DNA of 64,000 bases from Flavobacteriaceae bacterium (GTDB lineage: Bacteria; Bacteroidota; Bacteroidia; Flavobacteriales; Flavobacteriaceae), in the NCBI GenBank assembly GCA_947448525.1, contig CANFNV010000002.1:178633-242632 (forward strand), given 5' to 3'. Numbering within the stretch: the first letter of the stretch is position 1; each line of letters begins with the position of its first letter. Under the pieces are notes generated by a model that was not told where the DNA came from, made no database searches, and saw only the letters and a list, made by a program, of their open reading frames with translations. Shown piece by piece: positions 30,622 to 31,320 of the stretch. Both the position numbers and the translations under genes were made by a program.

Positions 30622-31320
30622 ATGACAAAACAAATCAACATATTATCTACCAAAAAGCTTTTGTCAAAACAAAAACAAGATTTGCTTGACGCCAATATTA
30701 ATCTGTTTGAAGAAGATTTCATTGAAACTAAAATTAAGAATTTTGAACTTTCAAAAGTAAATGACAATCTGATTTTTACCAGTCAAAACGCTGTTCAAAG
30801 CATTTTACAACATCCGAAATGGCAAGAACTGAAAACTAAAAATGTCTTTTCAGTAGGGATGAAAACCAAAGATTTATTAACCAATAACGGATTTGATGTT
30901 GTTGCCTACACCGGCTATGCATCCGATTTAGCTGAGATAATTTCTTTAGTTTATTCGTCCGATTCGTTCACTTTCTTCAGCGGAAATTTACGCCGCGATG
31001 TATTGCCAAGTACGCTGAAAGAAAACGGAATAACTTTCAACGAAATCGAAGTGTACGAGACAAATTTAACTTCCACTAAAGCCACCCCGCCCTTTGGGCA
31101 CCCCTCCAAAGGAGGGGAATCTAGGTTCGATGGAATCCTTTTTTTCAGTCCATCAGCAGTGGAAAGTTATTATAAATGGAATACAATAAAAGACGAAATG
31201 TGTTTCTGTATTGGTGAAACCACCGCTGAAGCTTTAGAAAATAAAAAAGTAAAAAACATAATCATCGCAGAAAAACCATCGGTTGAAAATGTGATTTCAC
31301 AAGTAATAGAATATTATTAA
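30622..31320 (+). CDS. hemD: Uroporphyrinogen-III synthase
   Basis: IFTSQNAVQSIL, FFSGNLRRDVLPSTLKENGITFNEIEVYET, DGILFFSPSAVESYYKWN, CIGETTAEAL. Confidence 0.9.
   Translation: MTKQINILSTKKLLSKQKQDLLDANINLFEEDFIETKIKNFELSKVNDNLIFTSQNAVQSILQHPKWQELKTKNVFSVGMKTKDLLTNNGFDVVAYTGYASDLAEIISLVYSSDSFTFFSGNLRRDVLPSTLKENGITFNEIEVYETNLTSTKATPPFGHPSKGGESRFDGILFFSPSAVESYYKWNTIKDEMCFCIGETTAEALENKKVKNIIIAEKPSVENVISQVIEYY
31089..31117. repeat. GC-rich double palindrome inside hemD: GCCCTTTGGGC + CCCCTCCAAAGGAGGGG
   Basis: Two adjacent perfect hairpins (4-3-4 and 7-3-7) read in frame as ..PFGHPSKGG.. Confidence 0.85.

Follow-up and report, generated by a model that had tools for sequence, protein, structure and literature searches.

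Structure of the palindromic element in hemD

A palindromic element is located within the hemD gene of a Flavobacteriaceae bacterium, in a 64,000-nucleotide stretch of contig CANFNV010000002.1 (to be referred to as the window). The hemD gene (30622–31320, forward strand) encodes a uroporphyrinogen-III synthase of 232 amino acids and is part of a hemA-C-D-E-F-B cluster. Its open reading frame (ORF) matches the Pfam family HEM4 (E=1.4e-32), and the modeled fold matches those of uroporphyrinogen-III synthases in the PDB. The element is 39 nt long (31082–31120), with limits set by comparison with its other copies in this genome and in the genus, and represents a net insertion of 33 bp (11 amino acids) relative to the orthologues. 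It belongs to one of several palindrome classes, to be referred to as type 1.

The element, which also reads on the forward strand, begins with CCACCCC (31082–31088), an end that is invariant in the aligned sample of the family. This is followed by hairpin 1 (31089–31099), with the stem and loop GCCC TTT GGGC (GCCCTTTGGGC), and, after a single A, by hairpin 2 (31101–31117), with CCCCTCC AAA GGAGGGG (CCCCTCCAAAGGAGGGG). The alignment shows a variable stem with compensatory changes for hairpin 1, and a nearly invariant stem for hairpin 2. The other end of the element is AAT (31118–31120), where AA is invariant in the aligned sample and T is usual. Both hairpins are perfect and inside the ORF, in agreement with the original prediction of two adjacent hairpins in frame in hemD.

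For the 17-nt palindrome, the chance expectation in the window is 0.05 occurrences when 3 mismatches are allowed. The 11-nt hairpin alone is at chance level within the window, and the local folding energy departs only slightly from expectation (z −1.6) and was dropped as evidence. Therefore the case rests on the recurrence of the element rather than on hairpin strength. Palindromes of the other classes were not found in the window.

Comparison with HemD orthologues

The hemD alignment contained 30 matches from members of the genus, including the sequence studied here. In this HemD, 11 extra residues are located between the segments ending in YETNLTSTKA and beginning with RFDGILFFSPS. They are absent from 28 aligned orthologues (45–88% identity), and the lengths of the orthologues agree at this site, except for a 2-residue variant in one group. 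Orthologues had been predicted to lack about 13 residues; the absence was borne out, but the size is exactly 11 residues. In the DNA alignment, five close relatives show a clean gap of 33 nt. The hemD copy is thus a clean in-frame insertion. The nearest relative (88% identity at the amino acid level) reads ACCAC at the junction, so up to 6 nt of the target site are ambiguous, and comparison with this relative shows no clear duplication.

The codons ATPPFGHPSKGGESR (31081–31125, forward strand) encode an extra loop in HemD, as the original prediction had proposed, and the ORF stays open across it. A model of HemD, calculated from 29 sequences, has a mean predicted local distance difference test (pLDDT) score of 89. 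The score is below 50 for residues 159–165, between the strands at residues 138–149 and 171–174, so the insert is likely a disordered surface loop.

In one other genome (G030), hemD is truncated, with a small deletion in the same loop as the element (L070, G030:C459). This could be an assembly error or a pseudogene.

The palindromes form a dispersed family

Bacteroidota genomes commonly contain short GC-rich palindromes. The genome studied here (2.15 Mb in 33 contigs, 90% complete) contains four copies of the element in all. The three copies besides that in hemD have 84–92% identity to it (E about 1e-10) and are located in the intergenic regions around atpC, rplQ/carA, and map (gene names read from translations). 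Allowing up to 3 mismatches, the 26-nt core has matches in 24 of 150 relatives, and the reversed control never does. The family is dispersed, as expected for the small mobile unit that had been proposed, and neither of the two observations that were to speak against this proposal, a single-copy element and a loop conserved among HemD orthologues, was made. Copies of type 1 are often arranged as inverted pairs.

The blocks CCACCCC, CACCCCT, and GAGGGGAA are invariant among type-1 copies. The stem of hairpin 1 varies, with GCCC/GGGC, GTCC/GGAC, GGCC/GGCC, GACC/GGTC, and GCCT/AGGC being found. Among 36 distinct sequences, 21 cells are changed on both sides of this stem, compared to a mean of 5.1 after shuffling, and 0 of 500 shuffles reach 21, although kinship among the copies inflates such counts. 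The pairing is lost when the partner strand is slid. Together with the compensatory changes, this indicates that hairpin 1 is kept as a structure.

All six reading frames are open in 39 of 71 copies, compared to 32% of shuffled sequences. As this excess is modest, selection for being open in all six frames was rejected, and survival in frame is mostly a matter of GC richness and net length.

At the end of one contig, beside a Type ISP methylase gene, a 421-bp unit is repeated 3.4 times, with an inverted pair of elements in each repeat (L071:1-1432).

DUF559 genes are located between inverted palindromes

Loci rich in the element in two genomes (G045 and G072) carry an ORF with a DUF559 domain. 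A search of the genus for this domain (PF04480) finds a DUF559 gene adjoining the element in nine genomes. Among genomes G001–G090, the element is present in 9 of the 10 with a type-1 DUF559 gene and in 10 of the 80 without one (Fisher p=1.2e-6; counts put together by hand from the searches with the core element and PF04480). In the flanks that were read, DUF559 genes are bounded by inverted palindromes.

Five classes of palindromes follow the DUF559 tree. Type 1 is the class of the hemD element, and the others are type 2 (CACCCCTAACCCCTCT..AGAGGGGAA), type 3 (TCCCCCTAACCCCC..GGGGGAA), type 4 (TTTTCGTTTGCCCC..CCCTAAAGGG), and type 5 (AGCCCCCC.ACCCCC..GGGGGAGCT). Placing the classes on the tree requires 6 Fitch changes, compared to a mean of 33 and a minimum of 26 after shuffling, a result that is descriptive since the classes were defined after the flanks had been seen. 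A class-free test was also made with 80 loci from named genomes (Flavobacterium, Chryseobacterium, Pedobacter, Bacteroidales, one Ignavibacteriae, and one Ghiorsea), with control positions inside the same loci. An inverted match with a score of at least 15 is present across the gene in 56 of the 80 DUF559 loci, and at none of the 148 control positions. Each clade of DUF559 genes is flanked by its own palindrome, in inverted copies.

In two other species, a type-2 DUF559 cassette is located exactly between hemC and hemD (L172, L173). In PLSDB, searched for plasmid carriage, type-1 DUF559 has matches only below 60% identity.

The type-1 DUF559 protein, encoded for example at L082:1407-1817 and L072:5275-5703, has about 140 residues, with an FDRQ motif, conserved ExDGxxH residues, and Asp71, Glu82, Asp84, and His88 invariant in the alignment. 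Its model (pLDDT 92) was compared with known structures using Foldseek, which finds an endonuclease-like protein (PDB entry 3hrl, E=4e-6) and the catalytic domain of I-Bth0305I (3r3p, E=5e-4). The entry 3hrl is recovered by sequence comparison as well (E=9e-18). The modeled fold is that of a Vsr-like nuclease of the PD-(D/E)XK/EDxHD type, and the family of YcjD and VsrA has been placed among the PD-(D/E)XK/Vsr-like nucleases (PMC1189080, PMC12907096).

In-frame insertions in other genes

Insertion in frame is a habit of the type-1/DUF559 palindrome family. Type-1 copies are found in frame in leuS, at the same site in two species (L014, L021), in polA (L079), in an rlaP-like nucleotidyltransferase gene (L032), and in Type ISP methylase genes of several families. 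Whole cassettes, with a DUF559 gene between two palindromes, are also in frame, in metH (L142-L163), leuS (L147, L153, L157), UvrD-type helicase genes (L154, L165, L167), and Type ISP genes. Empty counterparts of these sites were found for metH, leuS, and the helicase. The metH gene has cassettes at two sites, and some species have two cassettes in one metH. Depending on the species, the second site is empty or is occupied by an 81-bp remnant with two facing palindromes, a degenerate remnant of 114 bp, or a cassette of 459–462 bp. Pfam scans of the cassette-bearing proteins found no intein domain.

A type-1 cassette directly follows uvrA in six genomes or more (L083, L192, L194, L199, L201, L202). 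A truncated second copy of the 3′ end of uvrA is present beyond the cassette at several of these loci, as expected if the cassette had recombined together with its flank into a chosen site.

Several further features were observed. One Type ISP methylase ORF of Prolixibacteraceae, with 1323 residues, carries about ten in-frame palindromes and a DUF559 domain and reads through (L217:64-4032). In the genome studied here, the loops that take DUF559 cassettes in other genomes, at the second metH site (L315) and in leuS (L316), hold low-complexity in-frame tracts instead, as do those of two other loci (L286, L289). These tracts, ACCGACAACCGACAAC (encoding PTTDNRQP) and CATTGCGAGCGAAGCGAAGCAATC (encoding VIASEAKQS), are possibly further mobile repeats. 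In the window itself, a 222-nt unit is present in five tandem copies in a coding region (660–1793), probably encoding the repeated domains of a protein at the cell surface.

Possible mechanism of mobilization

To our knowledge, no mover for this palindrome family is known, and none was found in the open-access literature searched. We favor, as the probable explanation, that the double hairpin in hemD is a short copy, with no gene of its own, from a family of mobile palindromes of Bacteroidota, the full-size members of which consist of a DUF559 gene between inverted palindromes and move with the help of the nuclease. DUF559 would recognize its cognate palindrome and would nick or cut the DNA at target sites. 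Repair might then copy in the whole cassette, in a homing-like manner, or a lone palindrome in trans, in a manner similar to that of miniature inverted-repeat transposable elements (MITEs). On this view, a lone palindrome would have moved into hemD in trans, as no DUF559 was found in this genome. It could have survived there because its sequence is rich in GC and mostly free of stops, its net length is a multiple of three, and the loop tolerates additions. The element is probably of no use to its host.

Several points weigh against DUF559 as the probable mover of the palindromes. The PF04480 search finds no match in the genome studied here, so the element there would have moved in trans or at an earlier time, unless the 90%-complete assembly does not cover the gene. 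Type-1 DUF559 is also absent from about half of the element-bearing genomes. The insertions were found to share no consistent target motif and no consistent target-site duplication. The mobilization (transposition, cutting, and binding) is inferred, and a role in mismatch repair has been proposed for DUF559 proteins elsewhere, namely VsrA of Caulobacter (PMC12907096).

In a different explanation, the palindromes have no dedicated enzyme and are multiplied by template switching or by gene conversion from hairpin to hairpin. The DUF559 genes among them would be cargo or unrelated genes for repair or defense. The element-bearing genomes that lack type-1 DUF559 are consistent with this, as is the description of the Caulobacter protein as a Vsr-like repair nuclease (PMC12907096). 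However, each DUF559 clade has its own class of palindrome, the inverted ends are found at the DUF559 loci and never at the control positions, and entire cassettes are found repeatedly at shared sites. We consider this explanation unlikely.

The original prediction suggested a different mover, a RAYT (REP-associated tyrosine transposase, of the Y1/HUH type), with the element being a repetitive extragenic palindrome (REP). The layout, with hairpins, inverted pairs, and dispersed copies, is indeed that of REPs and bacterial interspersed mosaic elements (BIMEs), and RAYT-type genes are common in the genus, some of them at loci with inverted ends of their own. Nevertheless, the Y1_Tnp domain (PF01797) has zero matches in the genome studied here (90% complete), and no Y1 match was found in G072, which is among the genomes richest in copies. 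The element is near none of 30 RAYT loci of the genus, and its ends are CCACCCC and AAT, with no GTAG tag. RAYT/Y1 was therefore rejected as the mover, and membership in a REP family is quite improbable. At four of the RAYT-type loci (L112, L099, L110, L107), the inverted ends are unlike the DUF559 palindromes.

It is more doubtful still that the repeats are transcription terminators or mRNA stabilizers selected at the ends of genes, with the hemD copy an accident. The three other copies in this genome are intergenic, but many copies elsewhere are in frame within genes, the arrangement is inverted around one enzyme family, and a following T-run is not generally required. Finally, it is barely credible, even with the species represented by a single assembly, that the orthologues have lost an ancestral HemD loop which persists here, or that the insert arose as an error of assembly. 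A total of 28 orthologues of consistent length lack the insert, and its DNA is a repeat with three further copies in the same genome.

Comparison with known systems

The DUF559-palindrome system shares many features with REP/BIME sequences and their RAYTs (PMC2817692, PMC3733652), including short dispersed palindromes that are often in inverted pairs, a single enzyme gene flanked by an inverted copy on either side, a matching of enzyme and repeat, and some intragenic copies. There are two differences, however. The enzyme here is a predicted Vsr-like PD-(D/E)XK nuclease rather than a Y1/HUH transposase, and the ends are CCACCCC...GGGGAAT (with CCACCCC and GGGGAA invariant), lacking a GTAG/GTGG tag. 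The CGTC tag of another group of palindromes (PMC3733652) is found here only within some variants of hairpin 1 and never at an end. With no GTAG end and no RAYT partner, the element is placed outside the REP/RAYT group. By analogy, we read the system as REP/RAYT-like with a different enzyme.

The Rickettsia palindromic elements (RPEs) and other palindromes in coding sequences are similarly in frame in functional genes, where the peptide is tolerated. The hemD element is of this kind, an in-frame insertion which the orthologues lack. In comparison, the RPEs are presumably unrelated in sequence, and the portions of that literature consulted describe no mobilizing enzyme, in contrast to the DUF559 link here.

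The EDxHD/Vsr-like homing endonuclease I-Bth0305I has a similar catalytic fold and also shows recurrent insertion in conserved genes. In the system described here, however, there appears to be no intron or intein, the insertions are bounded by palindromes, and lone palindromes spread as well. YcjD and the Caulobacter protein VsrA are members of the same Pfam family and predicted PD-(D/E)XK nucleases (PMC1189080, PMC12907096), but the descriptions are of a predicted nuclease or a possible enzyme of mismatch repair and do not connect them with mobile palindromes. Like MITEs, the copies here are short, carry no gene, and correspond to larger elements with inverted ends, but they have 39 nt, their parent is not a known transposon, and no clear target-site duplication was seen. 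No description of the DUF559-palindrome link was found in the open-access PMC literature.

Tentatively, these cassettes may constitute a class of elements separate from insertion sequences, introns, and inteins, though we hold this with less confidence than the DUF559-driven origin of the hemD copy. Such elements would be bounded by palindromes and driven by DUF559, would enter genes in frame without splicing, and would shed lone palindromes as parasites. They would have spread through Bacteroidota and into some other phyla in several lineages, with a separate palindrome for each lineage.

Implications

The pairing of palindrome classes with nuclease clades proposes a mover, and the question is directly testable, as natural empty and filled sites exist. 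It would add a second type of enzyme to partnerships of the REP/RAYT kind, and it would suggest a role for DUF559, which is labeled as having unknown function in Pfam. Moreover, selfish DNA adds loops or entire domains, in frame, to conserved enzymes (HemD, LeuRS, PolA, and MetH), and these gains bear on annotation, on protein-length variation, and on the evolution of insertions.
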